DNA of 64,000 nt from Streptomyces albus subsp. chlorinus. Its GTDB lineage: Bacteria; Actinomycetota; Actinomycetes; Streptomycetales; Streptomycetaceae. The stretch covers positions 6,760,463 to 6,824,462 of the forward strand of contig NZ_VJOK01000001.1 of assembly GCF_013302895.1 (NCBI RefSeq), in the 5' to 3' direction. Both the position numbers and the translations under genes were made by a program. Below, in pieces: positions 17,817 to 64,000 of the stretch; positions within the stretch are counted from its first letter, which is position 1, and each line of letters starts with the position of its first letter. Below the pieces are notes generated by a model, which saw only the letters and a program-made list of their open reading frames with translations, ran no database searches and was not told the origin of the DNA.

Positions 17817-19210
17817 GATGGACCTCCCGTCGCCCGGCCGCCGGCCGCGAGCGCCGGGGCGGCGTCCTGCCTGGGCGAGCCGGCGGCCCGCGCCGGACCG
17901 GCCTCGACCTGGCCGGCGACGACCACGCCGACGACCTCGTGCCCGCCGTCCGCACACGCCCCCGCGACACCGGCCAGCTCCTCCGCCGTCCACCTGCCCG
18001 CGCTGACGACGACCAGGGCACCGGACTCGGTACCGCGGTCCGGCACCACCGGCCGCGGCACCGGAACACCCACCACCCGCAGCACGGGGCACGCCCCGTT
18101 CGCCAAGGTGGGGGAAGGAGCACTCCCGGCCTCGGCGGCGAGGTGCCCGGCGGCCCGGCGGGCGATCTCGTCGCCGTCCGGTACGACGACGAGCAACCGC
18201 CGGGCGGCCGGCGCCTGGTCCCGGAGGCGGGCGCACACCCGCCGGTAGCGGATCCGCCTGCCGGCCTCGTCGCCGGACCTCGGCGGCGGCGGCACGTCCC
18301 ACCGCACATCGACACCCAGCAGCCGGCGCAGCCGGGCCCCCGGGCCGCGTCCGTCGGGGCCTCGCGCGCGCCGTTCGCCGGGCACGTCGACGGTGCCCAG
18401 CACCACCGAACCCAGCGCCGTGGCGATCTCCGGTTCGGCGCGCAGGCGGCGGTTCACCCGTGCGGCGACCAGATGGCCGACGACCGCGAGCAGGAAGGAC
18501 AGCAGCGCCCCGGAGAGGACGAGCTGCACCCGCGTCGGCGGCGCCTCCCCGGTCGGCCGGGCCGCGGGCCCCATGACGACCGGGCCGGCCTTCTCGCCCG
18601 CCGGGTCGGCCTGGTCCAGCTTCTTCATGGACTCTTCCAGCGAGGTGCGCAGCTTCTCCAGCGTGGTGCGGGCCTGCACGCTCTCCACCGTCCGCCCCGG
18701 ATCGGCCGCGTCGGCCAGTTCGGTGATGCGGCGGTTGGTCTCCGCCACCTTCTTGCGCAGCGTCTCCTGGCCCGTGACGGCTTCGGGGTCGGTGGTGCCG
18801 CCCGCGATCCGCGTGGCGAAGGCGACGAACTGCTGGGCCACCAGGTCGGACAGCCGCTGTGCGCGCTCAGGGGTCGTCGCCGTCCCCGAGACGCGGATGA
18901 TGTTCCCGTCGGAGGCATCGGCGCTCACCCTGTCCCGCAGCTCGCCGCCGCTGACGTCCGGCCGGCCGAGTGCGGCGGCGGCGCGGTCCAGCACCGCCGA
19001 ACTGGTCGCGATCTGCGCCTGGGTCAGCAGCTCGCGCTCCTCCCACTGCCCCGGCAGCAGAACCGACGCCGACGCCGTGTAGCGAGGCGGGAACAGCACC
19101 GAGGCGCCGTAGCCGACGAGCGCGCCCACCACGGTGAGGACGGCCAGCAGCCGCCAGCGCCGGCGGAGGATCCGTCCGATCGTGACCAGGCGTATGGTGT
19201 CATCGCTCAA
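17813..19210 (-). CDS. Second Wzz-like polysaccharide chain-length protein
   Basis: A 465-residue Wzz-type protein: N-terminal helix (LLAVLTVVGALVGYGASVLF) followed by the typical PPRYTASASVLL, a periplasmic-type domain with Arg/Glu-rich helices, a second helix (VLSGALLSFLLAVVGHLVAA), and a cytoplasmic tail containing LLVVVPDGDEIARRAAGHLA and SGALVVVSAGRWTAEELAG. That tail resembles the BY-kinase fold but lacks a P-loop. The start is a TTG at 19210 that overlaps the glycosyltransferase stop as TTGA; no ATG or GTG gives a better N-terminus. With the gene downstream it forms a two-component co-polymerase, and no active tyrosine kinase is visible nearby. Confidence 0.82.
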   Translation of the reverse strand: MSDDTIRLVTIGRILRRRWRLLAVLTVVGALVGYGASVLFPPRYTASASVLLPGQWEERELLTQAQIATSSAVLDRAAAALGRPDVSGGELRDRVSADASDGNIIRVSGTATTPERAQRLSDLVAQQFVAFATRIAGGTTDPEAVTGQETLRKKVAETNRRITELADAADPGRTVESVQARTTLEKLRTSLEESMKKLDQADPAGEKAGPVVMGPAARPTGEAPPTRVQLVLSGALLSFLLAVVGHLVAARVNRRLRAEPEIATALGSVVLGTVDVPGERRARGPDGRGPGARLRRLLGVDVRWDVPPPPRSGDEAGRRIRYRRVCARLRDQAPAARRLLVVVPDGDEIARRAAGHLAAEAGSAPSPTLANGACPVLRVVGVPVPRPVVPDRGTESGALVVVSAGRWTAEELAGVAGACADGGHEVVGVVVAGQVEAGPARAAGSPRQDAAPALAAGGRATGGPS

Positions 19211-20481
19211 CGGCGGGGCCTCCTCCCCGGCCGGACCGGGGCGCCCTCCGCCACGGGCGCGCGGCCGCGGCAGGCGGCGGCGTAGGCGGCGAGCAGCGCC
19301 CGCTGGGAGTTCCGCCAGGAGAGCTGCCCGCCGATCCGCTCCTGGCCGATCCTGCCCATCCGGGCCCGCTTGCCGGGATCGTCCAGCAACACCGCGATGA
19401 GCTTCGCGAACTGCGCCTCGTCGTTGGCGGGCGCGTAGACGGCGGCGTCACCGGCGGAGACCCGCGCCTCCTTCAGGTCGAACGAGACGATCGGCCGGCC
19501 CATCGCCATGTACTCCAGGACCTTGTTCATGGTCGACACGTCGTTGAGCGGATTGCGCGGGTCGGGGGAGAGGCACACGTCCGCGGTGGACAGGTAGCGC
19601 ACCAGGTCGGCGTCCGGTACGCGCCCGGTGAACCGCACCTGGTCACGCAGCCCGAGCCGCCGCGACAGCTCCACCATCGCGTCGAAGGCGTCACCGGAGC
19701 CGACGAACACCGCGTGCCAGTCGGTACGCCCGACCTCGTCACGCAGCTTCGCGAGGGCGCGCAGGGCGTAGTCGACGCCGTCCTGCGGGCCCATGACGCC
19801 GAGGTAGCACAGCAGATGGGGCTTGCCCCGCTTCAGCTCCGGCTCCGGCGGCACCGGTTGGAACCGCTCGATCGCGGGCGCGCTGCGCACCACGAAGACG
19901 TCCTCGGCGCGTTTGCCGCCCCGGCGCGTCGCGACGTCCCGGTAGCTCTCGTTCGTGGCGAGCACGACGTCCGCCGCCCGGTAGGTCAGCCGCTCCAGCG
20001 CGCACACGGCACGGTGGAGCAGGTCCTCACCCCGGCCGAACCGGGAGAGGTACAGCTCGGGCACCAGGTCGTGCTGGTCGAAGACGAACCGCGCGCCGCG
20101 CCGCTTGAGCCACAGTGCCGGCAGGAACAGCAGGTCGGGCGGGTTGCAGGCGTGGACCACATCAACCGGGCCGACCCTGCGGGCCAGCCGGGCCGTGTGC
20201 CACAACGCCGAGCCGTACTCCCGCAGATAGCCGGCCGGCCCTCCGGTGGCCGCGCGCAACGGGTAGCGGTGGATCCGCACCCCGTCGATCTCCGCCTCCG
20301 GCTCCGTGTCCCGCTTGGTCCCGCGGGGGCAGATGACGTGCACCGTCCATCCCGCGTCGCGCAGCGTCGTGCACTCCTGCCACACCCGCCGGTCGAACGG
20401 CACCGACAGGTTCTCCACCAGGATCAGCGCGCGCCGCCCCGGCCGCCCGCCGCCCGCCGCGTCACCAGGCAAGGCCCACAT
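19207..20481 (-). CDS. Glycosyltransferase family 4
   Basis: A 424-residue GT-B glycosyltransferase. It opens with LILVENLSVPFDRRVWQECTTL, typical of GT4/WbuB-like enzymes, then FDQHDLVPELYLSRFG. The donor domain contains LLCYLGVMGPQDGVDYALRA, the ADVCLSPDPRNPLNDVSTMN segment and the EYMAMGRPIVSFDLKEARV region. It probably adds the second sugar after the polyprenyl-phosphate sugar transferase. The ATG at 20481 lies inside the end of the dehydrogenase gene (20-base overlap); an in-frame TTG at 20472 is an alternative. The sugar donor is unknown, but GDP-mannuronate made by the neighbouring enzyme is a reasonable candidate. Confidence 0.88.
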   Translation of the reverse strand: MWALPGDAAGGGRPGRRALILVENLSVPFDRRVWQECTTLRDAGWTVHVICPRGTKRDTEPEAEIDGVRIHRYPLRAATGGPAGYLREYGSALWHTARLARRVGPVDVVHACNPPDLLFLPALWLKRRGARFVFDQHDLVPELYLSRFGRGEDLLHRAVCALERLTYRAADVVLATNESYRDVATRRGGKRAEDVFVVRSAPAIERFQPVPPEPELKRGKPHLLCYLGVMGPQDGVDYALRALAKLRDEVGRTDWHAVFVGSGDAFDAMVELSRRLGLRDQVRFTGRVPDADLVRYLSTADVCLSPDPRNPLNDVSTMNKVLEYMAMGRPIVSFDLKEARVSAGDAAVYAPANDEAQFAKLIAVLLDDPGKRARMGRIGQERIGGQLSWRNSQRALLAAYAAACRGRAPVAEGAPVRPGRRPRR

Positions 20482-21778
20482 ACCCCGGCTCGGCCCGGCG
20501 CGCCTCGGCGTCGGGAAGGCGGACGAGGTCGATCAGCACCGGGCCGCCGCCATGGGGCAGCGCCGCGAGCACGCCGGGATCCCTGGTGCCGATCAGGCAC
20601 ACCTCGGCGTGTTCGAGGACCTCGTCCACGGAGTCCGCGAGCAGTTGCGTCAGGTGCGGCAGCCGGGTCTCGATGTACTCCCGGTTCGCGCCGAGCAGCC
20701 GGGAGAGGCTCACGTTCGCGTCGTAGATCTTCAGGTCGTACCCCTTGCCGAAGAGCCTCTCCGCCAGCTCGACGAGCGGGCTCTCACGGAGGTCGTCGGT
20801 GCCGGGTTTGAAGGACAGCCCCAGCAGGCCCGCCCGGCGTTTGCCGGTGCGCTCGACCAGCTCCACCGCGCGCTGCAGATGCGCGGAGTTGGACGGCAGC
20901 ACGTGGGCGAGGATGGGCACCGAGACATCGGCCCGCTGCGCCGCGTGGACCAGGCTGCGCAGGTCCTTGGGCAGGCACGAGCCGCCGAAGGCGAAGCCGG
21001 GCCGCAGATAGGCGGAGCTGATGTTCAGCTTGCGGTCGGCCAGGAACACGTCCATCACCTGGTGCGAGTCCACCCCGAGCGCCTGGCACACCGCGCCCAG
21101 CTCGTTCGCGAAGCCGATCTTGAGGCCGTGGAACGCGTTGTCCGCGTACTTGATCGCCTCGGCCGTCGGGACCGGCACCCGGAAGACCTCACCGGGCAGT
21201 CCGTCGTACAGCGCCCTCACCGCGTCACCGCTCGCCGCGTCCAGCTCCCCGATGACGGTCTTGGGCGGGTCGAAGAAGTCCCGCACGCTGGTGCCCTCGC
21301 GCAGGAACTCCGGGTTGACCGCGACCCCGACGTCCACCCCGGCCGTCCCGCCGACGTACTTCTCCAGGATCGGCACCAGCAGGTTCAGGCAGGTGCCCGG
21401 CAGCATGGTGCTGCGGAACACGACGGTGTGCCGCCCGCCCCGCTCGGCCAGCGCCGCGCCGATCTGCTCGGTGACCCGCTCCAGATACGCGGTGCACAGG
21501 CTGCCGTTGGGCTCCGACGGCGTGCCCACGCAGACCAGCGACACCTGGCTGTCCGCGAGCGCCTCCCGGACGTCACCGGTGGCCCGTAACGCCCCGGTCC
21601 GCACCACCTCGGTGATCAGCTCGCCGATCCGCTCCTCCACCACCGGGGCCCTGCCCTCGTTGACCAGGTCGACCTTCACCTGGTTCACGTCCACCCCGAC
21701 GACCTCGTGCCCCATGCCGGCCAGGCACGCGGCCGACACACAGCCCACGTAGCCGAGCCCGAAAACGCTGACCCTCAT
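20462..21778 (-). CDS. AlgD-like GDP-mannose 6-dehydrogenase (nucleotide-sugar dehydrogenase)
   Basis: A 438-residue UDP-glucose/GDP-mannose dehydrogenase. The NAD site G7-x-G9-x2-G12 sits in FGLGYVG. NPEFLREG is at 155-162, K210/N214 are in the EAIKYADNAFHGLKIGF region, and the thioester Cys is C268 in FAFGGSCLPKD. Compared from memory with Pseudomonas AlgD, residue numbering is identical around K210, N214 and C268, and the C-terminal REYIETRLPHLTQLL segment also follows AlgD rather than UDP-glucose dehydrogenase. The reaction would be GDP-mannose to GDP-mannuronate with two NAD+. It supplies an acidic sugar for the polymer. UDP-glucose as substrate is not excluded by sequence alone. Confidence 0.88.
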   Translation of the reverse strand: MRVSVFGLGYVGCVSAACLAGMGHEVVGVDVNQVKVDLVNEGRAPVVEERIGELITEVVRTGALRATGDVREALADSQVSLVCVGTPSEPNGSLCTAYLERVTEQIGAALAERGGRHTVVFRSTMLPGTCLNLLVPILEKYVGGTAGVDVGVAVNPEFLREGTSVRDFFDPPKTVIGELDAASGDAVRALYDGLPGEVFRVPVPTAEAIKYADNAFHGLKIGFANELGAVCQALGVDSHQVMDVFLADRKLNISSAYLRPGFAFGGSCLPKDLRSLVHAAQRADVSVPILAHVLPSNSAHLQRAVELVERTGKRRAGLLGLSFKPGTDDLRESPLVELAERLFGKGYDLKIYDANVSLSRLLGANREYIETRLPHLTQLLADSVDEVLEHAEVCLIGTRDPGVLAALPHGGGPVLIDLVRLPDAEARRAEPGYVGLAW

Positions 21779-26455: not shown

Positions 26456-26920
26456 TCACGGTTCGGTCCGCAGCAGTTTGCCGAGGAGGTCCGAGAGCTG
26501 CCGGCGCTCGGCAGGGCTGAGGGCATGGAAGGTGCCGTCGAGGAACTCGGGCACGGCGTCTTCCGCCTGGGCGAGGAGCCGGCGGCCGGAATCGGTGAGG
26601 GGGACGGCGTAGGCGCGGCGGTCCGCGACGTCTCGTTCGCGGCGTACGTGGCCCGCCTGTTCGAGACCGTCGCAGATGCCCACCATCACGGTGCGGTCGA
26701 TGCGCGACTCGTCGCTCAGGACGCGCTGCGAGCAGGGGCCGACCTCGGGGAGCATCTTCAGCACCAGGTGCTGGCCGACGCCCAGTCCGAGGGCCCCGGC
26801 GTGGGCGTCCGCGGCCCTCGCGACCGTGGCTGAGGCCCGGCACAGGGCGATGTCCAAGCGCTCCGCGGCAAGCCGGGGGAAGTAGGCGGTGCTCGCGCGG
26901 TCCGTGGTCCTGGACGGCAT
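26456..26920 (-). CDS. MarR-family transcriptional regulator
   Basis: A 154-residue winged-helix protein. The order is an N-terminal dimerisation helix, VLKMLPEVGPCSQRVLSDES, the recognition-helix region RIDRTVMVGICDGLEQAGHV, and the wing RRERDVADRRAYAVPLTDSGRRLL, which is the usual MarR DRR wing. The ATG at 26920 has GGAGG upstream, which decides it over an in-frame start at 26983. MarR proteins are dimeric repressors often relieved by small phenolic ligands. No clear target is adjacent: upstream lies the hairpin terminator of the lipoprotein gene, so it is probably transcribed alone. Confidence 0.88.
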   Translation of the reverse strand: MPSRTTDRASTAYFPRLAAERLDIALCRASATVARAADAHAGALGLGVGQHLVLKMLPEVGPCSQRVLSDESRIDRTVMVGICDGLEQAGHVRRERDVADRRAYAVPLTDSGRRLLAQAEDAVPEFLDGTFHALSPAERRQLSDLLGKLLRTEP

Positions 26921-27005
26921 GTTGTCTCCCTCCTGAGTCGGCGCCATTGGGGGGAGAGAGAAAGGCCGTTCGAAGGCGGCCATGGCCGGCGAAGGCAGTC
27001 ATGAC

Positions 27006-27045
27006 CGCGGCGGTGGAACCACCTCCGGGTGGCTCCACCGCCGCG
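27006..27045. terminator. Strong hairpin downstream of the lipoprotein gene
   Basis: CGCGGCGGTGGA at 27006-27017 pairs with its complement at 27034-27045, and an inner CCACC/GGTGG stem closes a TCCG loop, with a single mismatch between the two stems. It lies 16 bases past the lipoprotein stop on the minus strand and upstream of the MarR gene, so it should insulate the two. Confidence 0.75.
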
Positions 27046-27060
27046 TGACCGGGCAAGTGC

Positions 27061-27738
27061 TTACGCGTGGGCGCTGATCACGCCGCCGCTGCTGAGCACG
27101 ATGTAGACACCGTTGGCGTTGAGCCCGGCGTCGTGCCCGTTGGTCTTCAGCGTGGCGGCCACCCCGTCGTTCCCGATGATCTGCGCCTGGTAGCGCAGCT
27201 CACCGAGCTTCTTGACCTTGGCGGTCCAGCCGCCCGCGAGCTGGAAGGTGCCCGGCCCCTGGTGCCCGCCGCCCATCCAGGAGTGCACCTCGCCGCCCAG
27301 CGTCAGCACGACGAACATGTCGTTGGCGTCGAGCCCGGCGTCGTGCCCCTTCGTCTCCATGGTGGCCAGGACCGAACCACCGTTGACGATCTTGGCGCGG
27401 TAGTGCTGCTCACCGAGCTTCTGGATCTTGGCCGTGCTGCCGTCCACCAGCTTCTGGGTACGGGTCGAACCCTTCTTGGCGGTGGTCTTCGGAGCGCCGG
27501 CGTTGGCGGGCGACCCGCTCTGCTCGCGGATCTGGTCCTTGCCCGCTGCGGTCCGGGCGCCTTCGCTCTTCGTACCACCGCTGCCGGTGGTGGAAGCGGC
27601 CGTGGAGGCGGCGGAGTCCTTCTTCTCCATGGCCGCTTCCTTGCCCCCGCTCTGGCAGGCGGTCAGCGAGAGCGCCGCGGCGACGGCGGCGGCCACCAGG
27701 CCGGCGGAACGGACGGTGCGACGAGTACGAACGGTCAT
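27061..27738 (-). CDS. Lipoprotein with a 70-residue internal duplication
   Basis: A 225-residue exported protein. The signal ends in lipobox LTAC with Cys28. A Ser/Thr/Lys-rich linker (about 29-95) follows. Then come two copies of one domain with an exact 70-residue offset: KLGE at 107-110 and 177-180, GHDAGLDAND at 131-140 and GHDAGLNANG at 201-210, each ending in a hydrophobic strand and a Gly-Gly turn. The repeats look like small beta-rich domains on the cell surface. The family function is not known to me. The ATG at 27738 has GGGGGGAAT upstream. It is a single-gene unit with a strong terminator. Confidence 0.82.
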   Translation of the reverse strand: MTVRTRRTVRSAGLVAAAVAAALSLTACQSGGKEAAMEKKDSAASTAASTTGSGGTKSEGARTAAGKDQIREQSGSPANAGAPKTTAKKGSTRTQKLVDGSTAKIQKLGEQHYRAKIVNGGSVLATMETKGHDAGLDANDMFVVLTLGGEVHSWMGGGHQGPGTFQLAGGWTAKVKKLGELRYQAQIIGNDGVAATLKTNGHDAGLNANGVYIVLSSGGVISAHA

Positions 27739-28020
27739 GATGCGTATTCCCCCCAAGGGTGTCGGAATCCGGCACCGACGCTCAACCGCGGGTACCGGTC
27801 GCAGCTCCTGTTCGCTGCACCCCGTGAGATGGCACCCGAGCACAAGTTGTTCACCGGTTTGTGTCCGCACTTGGTAACAACGGCCACTACCGTCGCCACC
27901 CGCCACGAAGAGCCCGAGTCGGCCTGGGTGTCCGATCCGCGTCCGTCATGGGCGCGGCCCTGCCGCGATGACTCCGAGATCATCTCCCGGATTTCTCCCA
28001 GGTGGCCCTCAAGAAGCGGC

Positions 28021-28055
28021 GAGGGCGGGTCTCCCGTATCGGGAAACCCGCCCTC
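28021..28055. terminator. Perfect hairpin beside the tRNA remnant
   Basis: GAGGGCGGGT at 28021-28030 pairs with ACCCGCCCTC at 28046-28055, and an inner TCCCG/CGGGA stem closes a TAT loop. On the minus strand it follows the tRNA-Pro remnant at the same relative position as the hairpin after the intact tRNA-Pro gene. It could also end leftward transcription from the SDR pair. Confidence 0.7.
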
Positions 28056-28072
28056 ACCTGCTCTTTCACCGC

Positions 28073-28110
28073 TCGGGACGGCGGGGTGTGGACCCACGCC
28101 CCTTGACCCC
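28073..28110 (-). pseudogene. Degenerate 3' half of tRNA-Pro(GGG), possible attachment-site remnant
   Basis: These 38 bases align with the 3' half of the intact tRNA-Pro gene at 37216-37254 with 35 identities and one single-base gap, in the same orientation. Acceptor 3' strand and T-stem are retained; the T-loop is altered; the 5' half of a tRNA is absent and no CCA follows. It cannot be a working tRNA. A tRNA 3'-end copy in direct orientation is the usual footprint of tRNA-targeted integration. Confidence 0.7.
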
Positions 28111-28288
28111 ACCACGGAGAAGGGTGCGGCCTGGAGAGAGCCGCGGACTCGGCCGCCGGCGCTCCGGGCGCTGGCGAGGGGAGTCGTCGATGAGCGACCC
28201 GGTCGTCTTGCGGCCGGATGCCGGATGCCGGAGGCCGGGCGGCACGGTGGCAGAGCTGGCCGAGGCGGTCGGCCGGGCACTCTCCTCG

Positions 28289-28981
28289 TCAGCGCAGGAC
28301 GAGCAGCGGATGGTCGCGCCGGGTGTGGAGCTGCCACAGTTGTCCGGCCACCGCATCCGGTTCGTGCCGTGCCCCGGGGCCGATGGGTCCGACGACCGTG
28401 AGCTGCGCGGCGTACACGCCCTCGTCGCCGAGCGCGTCGTGGAGCATGCGGACGTAGGCCGACTCGGCCGCGTAGGCGATCCCGGACACCGCGCGGTCGC
28501 GGTGCGGTTCGACGGCGGCGCCGCCGGTGGTGAACAACAGCGTGCCACGGCCGTGGCGGCGCATGTCCGCGGCCGCCGTGCGGACCACCGCCGTGGCGGC
28601 GACGACGCTGAGCGCCAGCGCGTTCGCGACGTCCTGCGGCTCGGTGTCCAGTACCGGTTTGATCCACTCCAGACTCGGTCGCGGGCTGAAGAGCACCACC
28701 TCGATGGGGCCGAGCCGCTCGCGCAGCGCGCCGAGCGCGGCGGCCAGCTCGTCCGGATCGGTCACGTCCGCGGTCGCGGTGGCCGGGGCGGCGACCGGCG
28801 CCGGGATCTCGCGGGCCAGGTCGGCGGCCATCCGCTCCAGGCGCTCCGCGTCGCGTGCGACCAGCCCGACCGGATGCCCCTCCCGGCCGAACCGGCGTGC
28901 CGCGGCGGCCCCCAGCCCAGGGCCGGCACCGATCACCACGAACGCCCCACGGGGCATGGCGGTGTTCTTACCCGCGGTCAC
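28289..28981 (-). CDS. SDR-family oxidoreductase, atypical active site
   Basis: A 230-residue short-chain dehydrogenase-like protein. The nucleotide-binding motif is GAGPGLGAA near 18-26, followed by VGLVARDAERLERM. In the place of the catalytic Y-x3-K the sequence reads YAAESAYVRM, with no Lys at the expected position, so the usual proton relay appears altered. The second half keeps the SDR order of strands and a substrate loop (VGPIGPGARHEPDAVAG). The GTG at 28981 overlaps the stop of the upstream SDR as GTGA, so the two are co-translated and probably controlled by the divergent MmyB-type regulator. The substrate is unknown. Confidence 0.82.
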   Translation of the reverse strand: MTAGKNTAMPRGAFVVIGAGPGLGAAAARRFGREGHPVGLVARDAERLERMAADLAREIPAPVAAPATATADVTDPDELAAALGALRERLGPIEVVLFSPRPSLEWIKPVLDTEPQDVANALALSVVAATAVVRTAAADMRRHGRGTLLFTTGGAAVEPHRDRAVSGIAYAAESAYVRMLHDALGDEGVYAAQLTVVGPIGPGARHEPDAVAGQLWQLHTRRDHPLLVLR

Positions 28982-29877
28982 GCTGCCGCCCCTGATGCCG
29001 GCTCCAGGTCCGCGCTCCTGGTCAGTGTCTCGTTCGCGTCGATCTCGCTTCGCAGGCGTTCCAGGCGGGCGCGGGCGCCGGCGAGCGCGTCCGAGCCGAG
29101 CAGGAGCCGCAGCGGCGGTGTCTCGGCGTCGACGGCGGCGGCGATCGCCGCGGCGGCGCGGACCGGGTCGCCGGGCTGGCGGCCGGAGACGGCAAAGGTG
29201 GTCTCACGGCGCTTGCCGGCGGTCTGCTCGTAGTCGTCCAGGCGTATGGGGGACTGCTGCATGGAACTCCCCGCCCACCGGGTGCGCAGGCCGCCCGGCT
29301 CGGCGAGGGTGACCGCGATGCCGAGCGGGGCGACCTCCGCGGCCAGCGACTCGGACAGTCCTTCGAGCGCGAACTTGGTGGCGTGGTAGTAGCCGGTCGC
29401 GGCGAACGCCGCGAGACCGCCGAAGGAGGAGACATTCACGATGCGCCCCGAACGGCGGGCCCGCATACCGGGCAGCACCGCCTTCAGGACGGTGACCACG
29501 CCGTGCACATTGGTGTCGTACAGGTCCCGGACCGCGGCGTCCTCTCCTTCCTCGATGGCAGCCAGGTAGCCGTAGCCGGCGTTGTTGACCAGGACGTCCA
29601 CACGCCCGAACTCCTTCTCGCACGCCTCGACGGCCGCGGTCACCGACGCCGGGTCGGTGACGTCCAGCCGCAGGGCCAGCGCCCGGTCACCATGGGCGGT
29701 GGCGAGGTCCCGGACGCTCGCCACGTCGCGAGCGGTCACCGCGACGCGGTCGCCGCGTGACAGCGCGTGCTCGGCCAGGGCGCGGCCAAGACCGCTCGAA
29801 CATCCGGTGATCAGCCAGACCGGCGCCCCCTCGGCGCCGCCCGCCGGTTCCTCTGCTGTGACAACTTCATTCGTCAT
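28978..29877 (-). CDS. Classical SDR-family NAD(P)-dependent oxidoreductase
   Basis: A 299-residue classical SDR with ITGCSSGLGRALAEHAL near the N-terminus, LDVTDPASV, VLVNNAGYGYLAAIEE, the catalytic Ser region NVSSFGGLAAF and YYHATKFALEGLSESL (Y-x3-K). It should reduce or oxidise a small carbonyl/alcohol substrate with NAD(P). ATG 29877 has AAGG just upstream and is preferred; an in-frame ATG at 29913 would add 12 residues. It is the first gene of a two-SDR unit, divergent from the XRE regulator with about 120 bases between them. Such regulator-SDR pairs are frequent in streptomycetes and the regulator usually represses the SDR. Confidence 0.9.
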   Translation of the reverse strand: MTNEVVTAEEPAGGAEGAPVWLITGCSSGLGRALAEHALSRGDRVAVTARDVASVRDLATAHGDRALALRLDVTDPASVTAAVEACEKEFGRVDVLVNNAGYGYLAAIEEGEDAAVRDLYDTNVHGVVTVLKAVLPGMRARRSGRIVNVSSFGGLAAFAATGYYHATKFALEGLSESLAAEVAPLGIAVTLAEPGGLRTRWAGSSMQQSPIRLDDYEQTAGKRRETTFAVSGRQPGDPVRAAAAIAAAVDAETPPLRLLLGSDALAGARARLERLRSEIDANETLTRSADLEPASGAAA

Positions 29878-29998
29878 GCCTTGATTACAACGGGACTCCG
29901 GCGCGGGTGCCACGCCCCTCCGAGGGTGGCTCCCGGAGGGTCAGCTTCGGCGGTGCCTGCCGCGCCGGGGGCAGGCGGCGTCCGTAGAATCCGGCTGG

Positions 29999-30859
29999 AT
30001 GACTCGTGACAACAACCAGAACGACAACCGCCTCGGCTCCTTCCTGCGCAGCCGCCGGGAACGCGTCGACCCCGCCTCCGCCGGAGTCGTCGACAACACA
30101 CGACGGCGGGTCAAGGGTCTGCGCCGCGAGGAACTGGCGCTGCTCGCCGGTGTCAGCCCCTCCTACTACACCCGCATCGAACAGGGCCGCGACCGGCACC
30201 CCTCCCGCGAGATCCTCGAAGCCCTGGCCGGTGTGCTGCGCCTGGACGACACCGAGCGGACCTATCTGTGGTCCCTGGTGGCGCCGTCGCTCGCACCGGC
30301 GGCCGGCAGCGGCGCGGAGCCGGTCGACGCCGTGCGGCCGGGGGTGCTGGTACTGCTCGAACGGTGGGCCGACCTGCCCGCCTTCGTCGTCGGTCCCCGT
30401 CGCGACGTCCTGGCCGGTACCGCCCTCGCGGCCCGGGTCAACCCGGCGTGGAGCCCAGGGCACAACCTGATCGAGTTCACCTTCCTCGACCCCCGTGCCC
30501 CCAGGGTGTACCCCGACTGGGAGGACATCGCCGTCCAGGCCGTCGCCGGCCTGCGTACCACCGTGGCGGGCCGGCCCGCGGAGCTGGACGAGTTCGTGGC
30601 GAGCATGCGGGAGCGCAGCGACACGTTCCGCGCCCTGTGGGACTCGCACGATGTGTACGACCGCGTGACCGGCCGGAAGCGGCTCGCGGTCGAGGACGCC
30701 GGCATCCTCTCCCTCGACTTCGAAACCTTCGCACTCGCCGGCCCCGAGGGGCATGTGCTGTACGTGTACTTCCCGCAGCCCGGCAGCAAGGACGACACGG
30801 CACTGCGGCTCCTCGCGGGAGAGGAGCGTGCGGGGAGGAAGGACGGGGCTCAGCCGTAG
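29999..30859 (+). CDS. XRE-family regulator with MmyB-like ligand-binding domain
   Basis: A 286-residue regulator. The N-terminal helix-turn-helix is GSFLRSRRERVDPASAG, then VKGLRREELALLAGVSPSYY and TRIEQGRDRHPSREILEALA, a hallmark of this family. The C-terminal part is the MmyB-type (PAS-like, fatty-acid-binding) domain with LAARVNPAWSPGHNLIEFTF and WDSHDVYDRVTGRKRL. It probably represses the divergent SDR pair and responds to a hydrophobic ligand. The start ATG at 29999 is only about 120 bases from the SDR start, leaving one shared operator region. The assignment is firm; the regulated genes are inferred from position. Confidence 0.92.
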   Translation: MTRDNNQNDNRLGSFLRSRRERVDPASAGVVDNTRRRVKGLRREELALLAGVSPSYYTRIEQGRDRHPSREILEALAGVLRLDDTERTYLWSLVAPSLAPAAGSGAEPVDAVRPGVLVLLERWADLPAFVVGPRRDVLAGTALAARVNPAWSPGHNLIEFTFLDPRAPRVYPDWEDIAVQAVAGLRTTVAGRPAELDEFVASMRERSDTFRALWDSHDVYDRVTGRKRLAVEDAGILSLDFETFALAGPEGHVLYVYFPQPGSKDDTALRLLAGEERAGRKDGAQP

Positions 30860-31004
30860 CGGTCGCTCATCGCGCGCCTGCACGGCGTGTGCGGTGCCGT
30901 CCGGGGAGGGGAGCGGCCGGTAGCGGTCCAAGTCGCGGCGGACTCCTCGGTACTGGTGCGGCCGCCTCGCTGCCGCGCCGGGCTGAGTGGCGACGGCCGG
31001 CGGC

Positions 31005-33473
31005 TCAGTGGCGCGGCCCGGGCCCCTTGCCGTCCCGGGCGGCCGCATCGGCGTGGCGCTGGATACGGTCCCTGGCCTCCGCGGGCCGTACGCGGGCCGT
31101 GATCAGCTCACCCAGTACGGGACCGATCCTGTTGCGGCACAGCCCGGGATGCCAGTCGGGGAGACGGGGGTTGAGGACATGGCGTCCGGCCCGGGCCAGG
31201 GCACGCGCGGCGGAGGCCGCACCGGAAGGCAGGTCCCGCGCGTGCTCGGCACGGTCGACGGTGGTGAGGCTCCCGGTCAGTTCGGTGAAGCGCCGGGCCG
31301 AGGTGCGGCCGAGCATGATGCGGAGGAGTTCCATCCCGCCCTTTGGGTTCCGTGCCTTGCGCGGGACGAAGAAGGGCCTCGAGGGCAGGTGCCACATCGT
31401 GGGGAACGGCAGCGCGTCCGAGGCGTCCAGCGTGGGAGTGGGGGCGACCGCCATCTCGTCGTAGGTCCCGGGAGCCGAGGCCATCTCCTCCTCCAGCCAG
31501 CTGCCGTTGGGGAGAAAGAGCGCTTTCCCGTCGAGCCAGGCCGCCTGGGAGGACAGGTGGCTCCAACTCGCGCTGCGCGGATGCACGTACCCCTTCGCCC
31601 CCAGTTCGTAGACCGCCTCGAAGGCGTCCCGCACCGCCTCGTGGTGCCATGCGCCGCTGTCCAGGTTGTCGATGGCCTCCAGCGCGCCGCGTCCGCCCGC
31701 TTTACCGATGAGAGGCAGGACGAGATAGAGCAGGTACGAGGGGTAGCTGCCGGCGAACGCCCACCCCGCGAGGCCCTGTTTCTTCGCGGCGGCGCACAAT
31801 TCCAGCATCGCGTCCCAGGTGTGCGGGTACTCCCAGCCGAACTCCTCGAACAGCTCGGGGATGTACCAGATGCCGAGCACCAGGCTCGCGTACCGCAGCA
31901 CATACACGGAGGAGCCGCCCGCACCCTCCCGCGCAAGGGTGCCCGGGCGGAGGGTCTCCCGGACGGTCGTTCCCGGCGCGTCGGGCGACGGCGCGTCCAG
32001 CAGTGGTCCCAGGTCCGTCAGTTCCCCGTCCCGGATCAGCGCGTGCAGGTCGAGCGGTGAGGAGCCCGAGTTCTGCACCAGGTCCGGGGGTGGGGCCGAG
32101 GCGTGGAGCCGGGCCAGCACGGTCTTGGCGATGTTCTCGGTGGCGCGGTGCGAGACGTGGCTTCCCTGGAAGGCACGCCGATAGCGTTCTTCCGCCTCTT
32201 GGAGGTACGCGTCGCCGAACCCGCCCGCTCCCTTCTTGAAGGCGACGACGGACAGTTCGTCCTGGGCCGTCACCCCGAGCGGGTTGGGGCGCTTTCCCCT
32301 GTCTCTCGCCTGGGGGCGCAGCGTCCAGGCGAGTCCGCCCGCCGCCGCGGCCGCGGCGCCGGAGAATCCGATCAGCGTGCCGCGCCGGGTAAGGCCCCGC
32401 CGGCTCGGCCGGGGGCCGAGGGTGAGGGGACGGGTCCGTGCCGTCTGGGTGGGCGCCTCGTGCGGCGACCGGGTGCGGGGAAGGAGCGCTGTCCCGTCGG
32501 CTGCTGCCTTGCCTCCGGTGCCGTCGGCTGCCGGGCCGGACGACGGCCGGTCCGGCGACGGTTCGGCACCCGCATCCGGCAGCGGCGGGCCGTCCGCCTC
32601 CATGACGCGCCCGGCCAGTTCGAGCAGGCTGTGCGTGACAGGTGCGGGGAGCCAGTCCCCGTACGGGCCCGCCGGGCCCAGTCTCTCGCGCAACCACGCG
32701 ATGCCGGGGCGGTCGCGCGGGTTCCCGGCCAGGCACGCGGCAGCCGCTTCACGAAGCGCGGCGGGGACCCGGTCCAGACGGGGCCGCTCGTGCACCGTCC
32801 GGTACATCAGGACCTGTGGCTCGGCGCTGCCGAAGGGGCCGTGTCCCGTCGACGCGAAGGTGAGCACCCCGCCCAGCGCGAACACATCGGTCGCGCCCGT
32901 CACAGCGGGCCCCGCCGAACTCACCTGTTCGGGCGCCATGAACCCCGGTGTCCCGATGACCATGCCCGTATGGGTCAACGCGGTGGCCGCGGCGGCGTAG
33001 GCGATGCCGAAGTCGATGACGCGAGGCCCCTCGGCGGTCAGCAGCACGTTCGACGGCTTGAGGTCGCGGTGCACGATGCCCGCCGCGTGGATCGAGGCCA
33101 GTGCTTCCACGAGTCCGGCGGCCAGCATTCCCGCGGCACGCTCGGGCAGTGGCCCGTGCGCCAGTACGGCGTCCGTCAGGGAGATGCCCGGCAGGTAGGC
33201 CGTCGCCATCCAGGGGGCCGCCCCCTCCGGGTCCGCCGCCACGACCGGAGCGACGAAGGGGCCTTCCACCTGCCGTGCGGCGGCCACCTCGCGGGCGAAC
33301 CGGACCCGGAAGTGCTCGTCATCGGCCAGCTCGGCGCGGGCCGCCTTCACCGCGACCGTACGGCCTTCTGCCGAGCGGCCCAGATAGACCCGGCCCATCC
33401 CCCCGCCCCCGAGTACACCGACGAGCCGGAACGGCCCGATCCGTCGCGGATCGGCAGCAGCCAGTGGCTTCAC
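31005..33473 (-). CDS. Receptor-like Ser/Thr kinase fused to an NgcE-like sugar-binding ABC domain
   Basis: An 822-residue fusion. Residues about 12-270 are a complete PknB-type kinase: the Gly-rich loop GVLGGGGMGRVYLG, Lys43 in VAVKA, HRDLKPSN with Asp137, DFG with Asp154, and MAPEQ. A Pro/Ser linker leads to one membrane helix at about 365-386. Residues about 405-800 are an extracellular solute-binding domain of the NgcE (N-acetylglucosamine/chitobiose-binding) type: AFKKGAGGFGDAYLQEAEERY, WEYPHTWDAMLELCAAAKKQG, AIDNLDSGAWHHEAVRDAF, FLPNGSWLEEEM. GTG 33473 has GGAGGAG upstream. The layout suggests a sensor that binds a sugar outside and phosphorylates proteins inside. No ABC transporter genes are adjacent. 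Confidence 0.9.
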   Translation of the reverse strand: MKPLAAADPRRIGPFRLVGVLGGGGMGRVYLGRSAEGRTVAVKAARAELADDEHFRVRFAREVAAARQVEGPFVAPVVAADPEGAAPWMATAYLPGISLTDAVLAHGPLPERAAGMLAAGLVEALASIHAAGIVHRDLKPSNVLLTAEGPRVIDFGIAYAAAATALTHTGMVIGTPGFMAPEQVSSAGPAVTGATDVFALGGVLTFASTGHGPFGSAEPQVLMYRTVHERPRLDRVPAALREAAAACLAGNPRDRPGIAWLRERLGPAGPYGDWLPAPVTHSLLELAGRVMEADGPPLPDAGAEPSPDRPSSGPAADGTGGKAAADGTALLPRTRSPHEAPTQTARTRPLTLGPRPSRRGLTRRGTLIGFSGAAAAAAGGLAWTLRPQARDRGKRPNPLGVTAQDELSVVAFKKGAGGFGDAYLQEAEERYRRAFQGSHVSHRATENIAKTVLARLHASAPPPDLVQNSGSSPLDLHALIRDGELTDLGPLLDAPSPDAPGTTVRETLRPGTLAREGAGGSSVYVLRYASLVLGIWYIPELFEEFGWEYPHTWDAMLELCAAAKKQGLAGWAFAGSYPSYLLYLVLPLIGKAGGRGALEAIDNLDSGAWHHEAVRDAFEAVYELGAKGYVHPRSASWSHLSSQAAWLDGKALFLPNGSWLEEEMASAPGTYDEMAVAPTPTLDASDALPFPTMWHLPSRPFFVPRKARNPKGGMELLRIMLGRTSARRFTELTGSLTTVDRAEHARDLPSGAASAARALARAGRHVLNPRLPDWHPGLCRNRIGPVLGELITARVRPAEARDRIQRHADAAARDGKGPGPRH

Positions 33474-34076
33474 CCGGATCTCCTCCCCCCAAGACACCTC
33501 GCACATGCTCCGGTGCGCGGCGCCAGTATCACCCTTCCCGGCCGGACGTGCCGCCGGACCGCCCCTGGAGTCGTGGTCACCGCCGTCGCGCGAACGGGGC
33601 GGGAAGGTTGGCGCGGGCCGGTGGGTCGCCGCTGCGCCCGCGGGTGTCCACTGCCCCTGGGAGCGCCGGCGGGGCCCTGCCCGCCCTCGGCGAGAAGAGG
33701 CACACTCCGCCGCTGCTGAGCGAAGGCGTCCACGGGATGCCCCAGCAGTCGGCGGCGGTTTCGGCAGCGCGCGCCGCGTCGAAGAGCTGCGGCTGGACGG
33801 GCTCCGCCCGCCGGTGCGCACAGCGACGTGCTGAGCGTGGCGTTCGCGCCCATCCCACGGGAACACGAAAAAGGGCTGCTGGTCCGCTACTTCGAGGTCA
33901 CGCGGTGCACTCTCCCCTTCGAGCGAGCGGCCGCCTGGATGCGGGACGGGACCGCTCTTCTGGAGGAGGTGATGTCCACCGGCCACCGCTGCTCGTACGA
34001 CATCACCCTGACCGGCTCGCGCGGCTCCACCGGATGCACGGACATGACGGCGGCCTGGGGCTCACCCTCGGCGGGC
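33474..34076. other. Intergenic region with a possible decayed coding fragment
   Basis: No confident gene is found in these 600 bases. A plus-strand frame from a GTG at 33828 to about 34010 has strong codon bias and a plausible protein-like start (LSVAFAPIPREHEKGLLVRY). It then loses its character and runs antisense through the membrane-protein gene. Just upstream, a different plus frame (ARRVEELRLDGLRPPVR) ends at about 33834. Together they could be a broken gene; no family is recognised. Confidence 0.3.
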
Positions 34077-34511
34077 TCATCGGGCACTTTCGTCGAACGT
34101 CCTGGCTGCCTGGCGGTGGGCCTGTCGCACGAGCGCGCTGAACACCAGGAACACCGGCAGTGCGACTCCCGTCCTCAGCGTGCCTCCCCAAAACTCCTCG
34201 TCCATGACGAACAACCAGACACACACCGCGACCGGCATCAGCACCGACAGCAGCGTCCATACGATGTTCAGCAGCCCCCAGCCGAACTGGGCCATGTCCG
34301 CGTGAACGGTGCTGCCTCCCGGCGCCAGTTGCCGGAATCCGGCCGCCGCTGTCAGCGCGAGCAGCGCACTCAGCCCGGCGATCGCGGCGAAGACGGTCCC
34401 AAGCGGCCCGCCCCACAGGGCACACACCGTTCCCAGGGCGGCAAACCCCGCACCGAGACCCGCATAGGTCCGCGCCACCGCCCGCCGGCCTTCCGCGTCG
34501 AAGCCCCCCAC
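34077..34511 (-). CDS. Small membrane protein of unknown function
   Basis: A 144-residue protein with four hydrophobic segments: AGLGAGFAALGTVCALWGG, LGTVFAAIAGLSALLALTA, the long GLLNIVWTLLSVLMPVAVCV, and a last one around VALPVFLVFSALV, followed by a basic tail. The GTG at 34511 has GAGGGAGGGG upstream and is preferred to the ATG at 34541. No family is recognised. It is transcribed away from the endonuclease-like gene and toward the possible coding remnant, probably as a single gene. Confidence 0.65.
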   Translation of the reverse strand: MGGFDAEGRRAVARTYAGLGAGFAALGTVCALWGGPLGTVFAAIAGLSALLALTAAAGFRQLAPGGSTVHADMAQFGWGLLNIVWTLLSVLMPVAVCVWLFVMDEEFWGGTLRTGVALPVFLVFSALVRQAHRQAARTFDESAR

Positions 34512-34819
34512 GCGGCCCCCCTCCCTCGGCCTCTGCCTCACGCTACGACCCGCCGCACGTCGTGACCAGACTCGCCGACGGGGAGAGGAGTTCCTCTTCC
34601 CCCTCTGGGACCGCTGGTGTCACAGGGGCGCCCTTCGGATGACGGAAACTCGGGGACCGCTGGTCCCAGAGGGTGTCCTTCGATCGGCGGAAGCTCGTGG
34701 CCCGTCCACACGGCATCGGAGGACGCGGGGCATATCCATGTCATCGCCCGGGGAGCCGCCCCGGGACGAAGAGGGCCGAAGGCCAACGGCTGCGCCCCGT
34801 CGAGCGACCGGAGTCCACG
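34512..34819. promoter_or_regulatory. Divergent region between the membrane protein and the nuclease-like gene
   Basis: These 308 bases contain no supported gene. They hold the two-unit tandem repeat at 34607-34697 with embedded dyads, described separately, and the GGAG ribosome binding site of the rightward gene. No confident promoter boxes could be picked. Confidence 0.45.
34607..34697. repeat. Two-unit tandem repeat (46 + 45 bases) with inverted repeats
   Basis: Unit 1 is 34607-34652 and unit 2 is 34653-34697. Both start GGGACCGCTGGT, share a central CCTTCG, and end with GGAAACTCG or GGAAGCTCG. In unit 2 the start is a perfect dyad GGGACC-GCT-GGTCCC (34653-34667), and CTCTGGGACC at 34604-34613 is complementary to GGTCCCAGAG ending at 34671. 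This could be operator DNA or a foldable leader of the gene starting at 34820. Confidence 0.75.
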
Positions 34820-36442
34820 ATGCCGAACCGGATCAGCCTCTGCACGAGCGAGCCGCTGCGGCCCGGAGCGGATATCCCCGTCTTCTACGAGGTGGAGGCG
34901 GCGGGCGACAACCGCGTCGCCCTCTACCGGGACCCGGACGCGGCCCCGCCCCCGGAAACGGAGCCGGACCGGGACACGAACCCGCACGTGGACGCGAGCC
35001 AGGACACGGAAGAGGAGTGCGTCACCTTCGAGTACGCACCGGGCAGGGCCGGGGTCGTGTGGTTCTCCGGCCTGTCCACCGACCCCGGCGAGGACGACGC
35101 CATCTCGCCCGGCTCCTACGTCCTCAAGCTCCAGCAGGCCGCCGGGACCGGCCACGCCCGGGCCGGCGGGAGCGACCGAGCAGGTGAGGGCGTCATCGAC
35201 CTGGCCGAGCCGCTCCCCTTCGAGCTGACCTCGGAACCGTACTTCCTGGTCGGCTCCTTCACCACCGCCAACGTGCTGATCGGGCAGCCCGTCTGCGTGC
35301 CGCTGGCCGGGCTGCTGCGGTCCTTCGGCCGGCCCGTCGTCTTCACCGGGCACAGCGGGGACGACTGGCTGTCGGTCTCACCGGCCGGCGAGGTGACGGG
35401 CGTCGCCCCGGAGGGAACGGCGGGCCGCTACGGGCACCTCGTGGTCACCGCCCACGACGCCGAGGACCCCGGCGCCCGCCCCGCGACCATCGCCGTCCGC
35501 ATCCCGGTACGGGCCGGAACCGACCCGGTGACCGACCGGCTCCGGGTGGCCACCTGGAACATGTGGTACGACGCCACGCGCGTCCTCAACGGGGAGGACA
35601 AGGTCCTGCGCGTCCTGCTGGAAAGCGGCATCGACCTCGTCGCCCTCCAGGAGGTCCACCGCTATCAGGAACCCGGCACGGTCCGACGCCTGGCCGAGCG
35701 TCTGGGCTGGTACTACCACCAGTACCCCCGCCTGAACGACGACCCGGTCGACGACAAGGACGTGGGCGTCCTCTCGCGGTACCCCATCGACCCCGACGCC
35801 GGCGGCTTCGGCCAGCACTACCTGCGCACCGCCGTCGTCGTCGGCGCGGTGACGGTGCAGGTGTGCACCGTCCACCTCGACCACACCTGCTACGGCCCCG
35901 ACAAAGCCCCGCCCGGCACGCGCCGCTTCACACCCGCCGTACAGGCACAGGAGGGCGCCTCGGCCCGGGCCGAGGAGATGGAGGAACACATCCTCGCGCC
36001 GCTCGCCCCCTACACGGCCCGGGCGGACGACCAGCCGGTGATCATCCTGGGCGACTTCAACAGCCCCTCCCACCTCGACTGGACCAGCGAGGTCTTGACA
36101 CCGCCCGTCAACTGGCCGGCCACCCTGCTGCTCGAAGACGCGGCCTTCACCGACTCCTACCGCGCCGTCCACCCCGATCCCTCGGCGAACCCGGGCCTGA
36201 CCTGGTCGCCGGTCACCCTGTGGCGCGAGGAGCTGCAACGCGTCGAGCCGCTGGACCGCATCGACTTCATCTTCCACAAGGGCAGGCGGCTGCGTGCCCT
36301 CGACTCGCACACGCTCACGGCCGGCGCCCCGGCCCCCGCCGAGGACCACCCCGCCTGGGAGGACCACCCCCGCTACCGCTACAACGCCTGGCCCTCCGAC
36401 CATGCCGCCGTGGTCACCACCTACGAGATCCGACGTCCCTGA
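34820..36442 (+). CDS. Endonuclease/exonuclease/phosphatase family protein with N-terminal beta domain
   Basis: A 540-residue protein. Residues 1 to about 235 form a beta-rich region of unknown type, with a Glu/Asp-rich linker at 45-65. The C-terminal part is an EEP hydrolase: RVATWNMWYD with N247, LVALQEVH with E278, VHLDH with H352, ILGDFNSPSHLD with D412 and N414, and a closing SDHAAVV. This is the metal-dependent DNase I/sphingomyelinase/phosphatase fold, acting on a phosphodiester or phosphomonoester. No signal peptide is seen. ATG 34820 has GGAG at a good distance. It is followed 56 bases on by a small secreted protein. The substrate is not predictable. Confidence 0.9.
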   Translation: MPNRISLCTSEPLRPGADIPVFYEVEAAGDNRVALYRDPDAAPPPETEPDRDTNPHVDASQDTEEECVTFEYAPGRAGVVWFSGLSTDPGEDDAISPGSYVLKLQQAAGTGHARAGGSDRAGEGVIDLAEPLPFELTSEPYFLVGSFTTANVLIGQPVCVPLAGLLRSFGRPVVFTGHSGDDWLSVSPAGEVTGVAPEGTAGRYGHLVVTAHDAEDPGARPATIAVRIPVRAGTDPVTDRLRVATWNMWYDATRVLNGEDKVLRVLLESGIDLVALQEVHRYQEPGTVRRLAERLGWYYHQYPRLNDDPVDDKDVGVLSRYPIDPDAGGFGQHYLRTAVVVGAVTVQVCTVHLDHTCYGPDKAPPGTRRFTPAVQAQEGASARAEEMEEHILAPLAPYTARADDQPVIILGDFNSPSHLDWTSEVLTPPVNWPATLLLEDAAFTDSYRAVHPDPSANPGLTWSPVTLWREELQRVEPLDRIDFIFHKGRRLRALDSHTLTAGAPAPAEDHPAWEDHPRYRYNAWPSDHAAVVTTYEIRRP

Positions 36443-54702: not shown

Positions 54703-55581
54703 CTACGGCGGCCCCTCCAGCGGCGCCGAGGGGGACTCCGGCGCCGGAGACCCCTCCAGGACGTCCGCCGCGGCCGGATCCAGCACCCGGGCGAGGAAGG
54801 CCCGGGTCCGCGCGTGACTCGGATCGACCACGACCCGTTCGGGCGGCCCCTCTTCGACGACGACACCCCCGTCCATGAAGATGACCCGGTCGGCGACCTC
54901 CCGGGCGAAGCTCATCTCGTGGGTGACCACCAGCATGGTCATCCCCTCGTCCGCCAGCGCGCGCATCACCGCGAGCACGTCGCCGACCAGCTCAGGGTCC
55001 AGCGCCGAGGTCGGCTCGTCGAACAGCATCAGCTCAGGCCCCATGGACAGGGCACGGGCTATCGCCACCCGCTGCTGCTGCCCGCCGGACAGCTGCGCGG
55101 GGTAGCTGTCCGCCTTCTCCGTCAGTCCGACGCGGCGGAGGTTGCGCCGGGCCACCTCCTCCGCCTCCGCCTTGCCGCGTCCCAGGACGCGGCGCTGCGC
55201 GATGGTCAGGTTCCCCAGCGCGGTCAGGTGCGGAAAGAGGTTGAACGCCTGGAAGACCATGCCGATACGGCGCCGTACCCGGTCGATGTCCACCTCCGGG
55301 TCGGTCACCTCCGTCCCGGCGACCCGCACCCGGCCCGAGGTGGGCTCCTCCAGGAGGTTCACACAGCGCAGCAGCGTGGACTTCCCCGACCCCGACGGGC
55401 CGATGACGCAGACCACCTCGCCGCGCCGCACGGTGATGTCGATGCCGCGGAGCACCTCCAGCGCACCGAAGGACTTGCGCAGCCCCTCGATCTCGATGGC
55501 CGCCGTGCCGTCCTGGGGAGACCTCCCGGCCACCTTCGCACCGGTCGGGCCGTCACCGGTCGTACCGCTCATGCCGCTCAC
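54703..55581 (-). CDS. Polar amino-acid ABC transporter ATP-binding protein (GlnQ-type)
   Basis: A 292-residue ABC ATPase: Walker [11 protein letters not shown]-loop [16 protein letters not shown], signature [15 protein letters not shown], Walker [15 protein letters not shown] and switch VVTHEM. The order [15 protein letters not shown] and [13 protein letters not shown] is the GlnQ/HisP amino-acid type. About 25 residues of Gly-rich extension precede the domain. GTG 55581 overlaps the permease stop (GTGA); ATG 55572 is the alternative. It energises uptake with the next two genes. Confidence 0.95.
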
Positions 55582-56357
55582 CTCGCCCTCGCCGTACGGG
55601 CTTCCAGGCGCCGCACCAGGTGGCCCAGGGGCAGCGTGATGACCAGGTAGAAAAGCCCCGCTATCAGGATGGGTGTGAGGCTGTGGTGCTGATTGAGCGC
55701 GTCCCGGCCGAACTTGGCCAGCTCGTACTGGTCCATCGACAGTCCCAGCAGGTAGACGAGAGAGGAGTCCTTGGTGAGCAGGATGAGTTCGTTGGCCAGC
55801 GGCGGCAGCACGATGCGGAACGCCTGCGGGATGACGATGGAGACCATGGCGCGGGAGGACGACATGCCCAGCGAGCGGGCTGCCTCCGTCTGCCCCTTGG
55901 GGACGGCCTGGATGCCCGCCCGGATGGTCTCCGCCATGTAGGCCGCTCCCACCAGCCCGAGCGCCAGCATGACCGTCACGTACTGGTCGATGGAGACCTC
56001 GAAGGCCAGCGGGACGCCGAAGCCCAGAGCGATGAACACCAGCAGCGCCGGCACGCCGCGGAAGAACTCGATATAGGCGATCGCCAGCCAGCGGTAGGGC
56101 GGTACCCGCGACAGCCGCATCAACGCCAGCAGCAGGCCCAGAGCCAGCCCGAAGGTGAAGCCGAGCACGGTGTAGACAACCGTGTTGACCAACGCCGTCG
56201 TCACGACGTCCGGGAACTGTTCCTTGGCCACCTCGACGTCGAAGAACGCGCGCCGCAGCTCGCCCCAGTCCGCCGCGAACGCGACGACGAGGACCAGGAG
56301 GACCAGAACGCCGTACTGCGCGGAGCGGACAGCACGGGCACGGCCGGTGCGGCTCAC
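55578..56357 (-). CDS. Polar amino-acid ABC transporter permease
   Basis: A 259-residue HisM/GlnP-type permease with five or six helices. It has [46 protein letters not shown], and the EAA loop [68 protein letters not shown]. The GTG at 56357 overlaps the binding-protein stop (GTGA) and the gene overlaps the ATPase downstream in the same way. A single permease gene suggests a homodimeric channel. Confidence 0.94.

Positions 56358-60043: not shown

Positions 60044-64000
<3,957 letters not shown>

Follow-up and report, generated by a model that had tools for sequence, protein, structure and literature searches.

Related kinases and binding proteins

Kinases that carry a solute-binding domain of the ABC type in the same chain have been recorded before. 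The available text of Krupa and Srinivasan 2005 (PMC1262709) lists, for Streptomyces coelicolor, a 'Kinase + bacterial extracellular solute binding protein' (gi|21223285) whose binding domain is of Glu/Gln type, and for Nostoc a kinase joined to an ANF-receptor domain. The kinase-NgcE fusion described here likewise combines kinase and ABC-type solute-binding domain in one chain, but going by the descriptions in that text, and not by sequence, the domains of the S. coelicolor and Nostoc proteins are of amino-acid type, whereas that of the fusion is of the NgcE sugar type. The Streptomyces cadmiisoli protein WP_112443064.1 goes by the product name 'bifunctional serine/threonine-protein kinase/ABC transporter substrate-binding protein'. 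It resembles the fusion in kinase clade, layout and RR-hydrophobic element, but its outer domain is Peripla_BP_6, a different binding-protein family from the NgcE type. A plasmid of S. cadmiisoli (L087, 2989-6783) contains two adjoining genes annotated as kinase/ABC substrate-binding fusions; a domain scan of the first gave Peripla_BP_6.

An earlier note on this DNA, made from the sequence, knew of no described pathway with such an architecture. The S. coelicolor entry of 2005, as given in the available text (PMC1262709), and WP_112443064.1 speak against this. Because of the S. coelicolor and Nostoc list in that text and the S. cadmiisoli record, the class of kinase plus solute-binding architecture is already known, and the NgcE-type sugar ectodomain is its new part. 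No sugar-type kinase fusion was recognised in the literature among titles and beginnings of abstracts, a scope outside which most subscription journals and preprints fall.

More distant comparisons concern systems of separate proteins or other domains. In mycobacteria the separate binding protein GlnH is proposed, in the available text of PMC6069109, to control PknG through GlnX. There, as in the fusion, a solute-binding protein would govern a Ser/Thr kinase, but through three separate proteins, with an amino-acid ligand and a soluble kinase side, whereas the fusion is one chain. For PASTA kinases the accessible part of PMC6213207 describes dimerisation driven by ligand. NgcE proteins bind GlcNAc and (GlcNAc)2 according to the available text of PMC6167110. 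With NgcE of NgcEFG (TIGR03851) the fusion domain has the family fold and many conserved columns in common; it differs in standing behind a kinase, without lipobox and without permease genes alongside.

The fusion is probably a receptor kinase in a single protein, whose ligand would be an amino-sugar oligosaccharide of the GlcNAc/chitobiose class outside the cell, a reading to which we give moderate confidence. Its kinase motifs, kinase clade, NgcE profile and fold are observed, as are the lack of near permease genes and a separate permease-linked ngcE.

Gene structure

Coordinates refer to the window, i.e. the whole analysed stretch of 64,000 nucleotides of Streptomyces albus subsp. chlorinus. 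The fusion gene comprises the following:

31005..33473, minus strand: whole gene, 822 residues plus stop, GTG start (open frame, codon-position GC)
33481..33490, minus strand: ribosome-binding site GGGGGGAGGA, just before the GTG (sequence reading)

GC content amounts to 0.746, 0.575 and 0.870 at codon positions 1, 2 and 3, and open frame, Pfam and NCBIfam agree on kinase and solute-binding domain in one uninterrupted chain. The gene is located inside a 7.54-Mb contig. The locus proposed at 31005-33473 is a real gene, found on the minus strand.

Kinase domain

The N-terminal half contains two features:

32697..33425, minus strand: Ser/Thr kinase domain, residues 17-259 (Pfam PF00069, 121.3 bits; motifs; AfsK-like clade, 100/100)
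32967..32975, minus strand: activation-loop Thr-His-Thr, residues 167-169 (sequence motif)

Lys43, Asp137 (HRD) and Asp154 (DFG), previously described as intact, are each present at these positions, together with the glycine loop and the APE motif, so that the catalytic motifs are complete. Thr-His-Thr at residues 167-169 is presumably the counterpart of the PknB phosphorylation sites.

In a kinase-domain tree of 22 rows the fusion kinase belongs to a clade of nine with AfsK-like kinases (100/100), including L004 (PQQ propeller), L003 (FKBP) and the S. cadmiisoli kinase (Peripla_BP_6). Its nearest row within the clade is L011 (97/93), and it sits on a short branch of 0.22 changes per site. The tree is free of L007 and its longer copy L086, L009, L071 and L076, which have masked letters in the domain, and also of two L084 frames, L082 and L001, the duplicate row of the fusion gene itself; masked letters aside, the rows dropped were two additional short frames and duplicates. 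The best NCBIfam kinase model is AfsK (NF053615), with 302.5 bits over residues 2-330, far below the 1300 bits of the equivalog cutoff. C-terminal PQQ repeats belong to AfsK (PMC1262709, available text).

The AfsK-clade chassis thus bears propeller, FKBP or Peripla_BP_6 domains elsewhere. To judge from the sequences, the outer domains of the clade look exchangeable, since L003 and L004 of the same genome carry FKBP_C and PQQ-propeller domains, respectively, behind a common SRR-hydrophobic element. Such exchange could supply Streptomyces with new receptor specificities. Besides the fusion, the genome has 26 kinase places, 20 of which were scanned with Pfam. None of the 20 showed a solute-binding domain, but nine contain masked letters and could therefore still hide one.

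Binding domain

The C-terminal half is occupied by a single domain:

31008..32300, minus strand: NgcE-type sugar-binding domain, residues 392-822 (TIGR03851, AlphaFold2 fold, structural matches)

Residues 392-814 pass the cutoff of NCBIfam TIGR03851 (chitin_NgcE) with 411.7 against 399.65 bits, which upholds the assignment of the outer half to the GlcNAc/chitobiose-binding type; the score is near the cutoff, with five free NgcE proteins at 494.7-640.2. The AlphaFold2 model of the domain (alignment with 33 relatives) has a pLDDT of 89.2 and a pTM of 0.87. Its top structural match is a Bifidobacterium fucosylated lacto-N-biose binding protein (Z of 36.4 and rmsd of 3.8 over 390 aligned residues), followed by 7eho, a protein for chitin oligosaccharides (Z of 35.6 and rmsd of 2.9 over 391 residues), the ligands of the top matches being lacto-N-biose/galacto-N-biose and chitin oligosaccharides. 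Among the matches listed, free NgcE proteins of the genus are 44-50% identical to the fusion domain, and a more distant group about 31-42%.

Of the 177 columns with at least 95% conservation among 28 free NgcE proteins, the fusion keeps 134, about as many as the permease-linked ngcE of its own genome (137), which argues against a decaying binding domain. The orphan paralogs L034, L062 and L061, described below, keep 154, 145 and 139 of the same columns. The 43 columns altered in the fusion include D413K with an insertion, D467Q, Y533L and E699R, and the domain may therefore bind another ligand or none. The positions of interest for the pocket are as follows, with NagB1 contacts from the available part of PMC8233162 transferred by manual count on printed alignments:

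31497..31499, minus strand: Trp659, at the place of the NagB1 ligand-contact Trp292 (alignments; PMC8233162)
31734-31736, minus strand: Tyr580, at the place of NagB1 Trp213 (alignments; PMC8233162)
31557-31559, minus strand: His639, at the place of NagB1 Tyr272 (alignments; PMC8233162)
32214..32237, minus strand: changed N-lobe loop, residues 413-420, D to K plus a three-residue insertion relative to free NgcE (alignment)
31374..31394, minus strand: changed loop, residues 694-700, WHLPSRP versus WASGGEP in most free NgcE rows (alignment)

Y580, H639 and W659 are identical in free NgcE, and NagB1 D401 falls at D773 of the fusion or one column off. The loop 694-700 includes the place of NagB1 S330/N331. 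A sugar ligand, with GlcNAc and chitobiose as candidates, is likely for the predicted binding domain because the C-lobe contact places are kept, within the limit set by several altered N-lobe and loop positions. The sensing of chitin breakdown, suggested earlier as an example, is plausible on the same terms: the C-lobe positions speak for it, the altered N-lobe and loop positions against it.

In the tree of binding domains the fused domain sits on a long branch (2.11) with weak placement (82/67). Taking its position as proof of ancestry was dropped on account of this support and the long branches. An ngcF match was found in 8 of the 11 NgcE regions that were read more widely; the three without are those of G182, G002 and G302. 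They harbour the orphan NgcE paralogs L060/L034 (G182), L061 (G002) and L062 (G302), with no ngcF match in 12-14 kb, and the orphans form a group of their own in the tree (100/99). L061 and L062, which are two of the three paralogs closest to the fused domain in this tree of weak support (82/67), have frames that open without signal peptide, which would suggest cytoplasmic NgcE-like proteins.

Linker and hydrophobic stretch

Kinase and binding domain are connected by two segments:

32403..32696, minus strand: linker, residues 260-357, probably on the cytoplasmic side (AlphaFold2 confidence low from 296 on)
32319..32402, minus strand: arginine-flanked hydrophobic stretch RRGLTRRGTLIGFSGAAAAAAGGLAWTL, probable Tat-like signal anchor, residues 358-385 (RR-hydrophobic element in sister kinases)

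A membrane helix had been proposed at about 365-386. The hydrophobic stretch itself is present, with 21 uncharged, Ala/Gly-rich residues within 358-385 that are preceded by RR. As a membrane helix it is weakly backed: the best 17-residue Kyte-Doolittle mean of 365-385 is 1.44, compared to 1.62 in residues 1-340 and 1.38 in 396-822, and the full-length AlphaFold2 model shows no helix there, with 296-393 unstructured. This model was used as a caution only, because its pTM is 0.53 and its 15-row alignment shallow and mixed. The anchors of L003 and L004 are more hydrophobic (2.08 and 2.63). Free NgcE N-termini range from 1.42 to 2.01 and bear RR and lipobox in 45 of the 45 examined, a set without L026 (whose frame opens without signal), the Clostridium row, both fusion copies and the orphan L062. 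The fusion has no Cys in residues 341-420 and, with its kinase N-terminal, no Tat signal and lipobox of its own.

Residues 358-385 are a probable membrane anchor, because L003, L004 and the S. cadmiisoli kinase have an RR plus hydrophobic element at the same place, and because of the RR of the fusion, its charge balance, and the Tat export of the S. lividans ortholog of NgcE-Sco reported in the available text of PMC6167110. Within 20 residues of the stretch there are 7 K/R and no D/E on the N side, and 5 K/R and 2 D/E on the C side, a balance that favours a kinase inside the cell. A chain that never crosses the membrane, whose NgcE-like half reads imported amino sugars inside and controls the kinase, is unlikely. 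The weak hydrophobicity of 365-385, its lack of a helix in the AlphaFold2 model and the signal-less paralogs L061 and L062 would suit such a cytoplasmic sensor, but an uncharged stretch of 21 residues behind RR, where the sister kinases bear their hydrophobic element, would not, nor would the RR, lipobox and hydrophobicity common to the 45 free NgcE N-termini.

The origin of the anchor was compared across 46 free NgcE N-terminal regions and three kinase anchors. The top z (4.49) belongs to one NgcE, followed by the S. cadmiisoli kinase (4.36); the other two kinases reach 2.77 and 2.21, and the NgcE median is 1.83. Naming NgcE or kinase as the parent was rejected, 4.49 and 4.36 failing to separate the two.

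Permease genes and proposed function

The earlier note had taken the absence of adjacent permease genes as support for sensing over transport. Such genes are indeed absent: the nearest ABC permease gene is found at 55590-56150, about 22 kb off, and the genome has 85 BPD_transp_1 places. It is part of a minus-strand segment with ABC permease and ATPase genes (54703-56846), the permease of which seems, to judge by its sequence, to be of amino-acid type. A separate ngcE followed by permease genes is present in the same genome, about 0.83 Mb from the fusion. Since the kinase is intact, its outer half of NgcE type stands without neighbouring permease genes and the genome has another, permease-linked ngcE, sensing is more likely than transport, as had been proposed.

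The outer domain could also dock to the NgcF/NgcG permease of the genome, with the kinase reading transport instead of free ligand. The genome does have permease genes behind its ngcE, and the fusion domain keeps most family-conserved columns, but identity between this domain and the permease-linked ngcE is no higher than 37-38% and the two genes lie about 0.83 Mb apart, which makes a flux sensor of this kind improbable.

For the preferred reading, a receptor for extracellular ligand, we infer membrane topology, ligand, ligand-controlled kinase activity and physiological output. The AfsK-clade kinase would reside in the cytoplasm, residues 358-385 would fix the protein in the membrane, and outside the cell the clamshell derived from NgcE would bind an amino-sugar oligosaccharide. 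Ligand would shut the clamshell and thereby pair or rearrange the kinase domains, whereupon the Thr-His-Thr loop might be phosphorylated in trans and the signal passed to cytoplasmic targets. More tentatively, the protein may be a species-specific Ser/Thr receptor kinase in which an NgcE-type domain on an AfsK-clade chassis directly senses extracellular amino-sugar oligosaccharides, from chitin or other glycans, apart from their uptake.

In S. coelicolor (GlcNAc)2 uptake is essential for chitinase induction (PMC6167110, available text), and outside sensing is therefore unneeded there, as far as that text goes. A working receptor would open a route independent of import beside (GlcNAc)2 uptake. 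The stimuli of bacterial Ser/Thr kinases are called an outstanding question in the accessible part of PMC6069109. The outer domain comes from a family whose sugar ligands have been measured and whose binding is simple to assay, so that the ligand, the closing of the clamshell and the output of the kinase could be tested in one protein.

Distribution of related proteins

The binding domain has matches in 47 of 61 relatives at a limit of 1e-40, in 369 of 392 genus genomes at 1e-60 and in 182 of 197 order genomes at 1e-70, own genome included in each of these overlapping samples. Best identities beyond the own genome are 48%, 50% and 49%, respectively, for the latter two samples among the matches listed. 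The matching frames listed are mostly about 500 residues long, some much longer; the long frame L030 (1879) is a free NgcE with a normal signal. No second kinase-NgcE fusion occurs among the matches listed, best first, from the 392 genus and 197 order genomes, in a binding-domain scan that could miss fusions with a strongly diverged binding domain. Viral contigs contain no relatives. The genome-contig scan with residues 367-822, from which near-own records were possibly excluded, yielded one relative, a free Clostridium binding protein. Four plasmid records hold a relative of the binding domain, and no place in plasmid records covers 80% of the whole fusion protein.

A non-functional chimera, i.e. 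a recent chance fusion or mis-assembly, is very improbable. In its favour, the fusion is confined to one species among the matches listed from the scanned genomes, a neighbouring ORF is likewise restricted to the own genome among 61, and the binding domain has its long branch (2.11), but the gene is a single frame without stops, with ribosome-binding site and coding-type codon-position GC, both its domains are intact, and it lies inside its contig of 7.54 Mb.

Genomic neighbourhood

The fusion gene appears to stand alone. Upstream of it follow an ORF of 154 aa (34077-34541, minus strand) without Pfam match and then an endonuclease/exonuclease/phosphatase gene. The former occurs in 1 of 61 genomes, the own one only; the latter in 13 of 41, with one copy in the own genome and 12 matches elsewhere that are partial, at 38-51% identity. 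No empty site is definable by synteny. On the other side, an MmyB-type regulator (29999-30859, plus strand) points at the end of the fusion gene; divergent from this regulator is a pair of short-chain dehydrogenase genes on the minus strand (28289-29913).

The window scan detected no DasR-like box near the fusion within 26670-36074. DasR control was rejected as a candidate, the box core with at most three mismatches giving 17 matches in the whole window versus a chance expectation of 14.6.

Further genes of the window are a GH2 beta-galactosidase with LacZ-type domains (60044-63388, minus strand) and a glycosyltransferase gene that adjoins a UDP-glucose/GDP-mannose dehydrogenase gene (19207-21778, minus strand).
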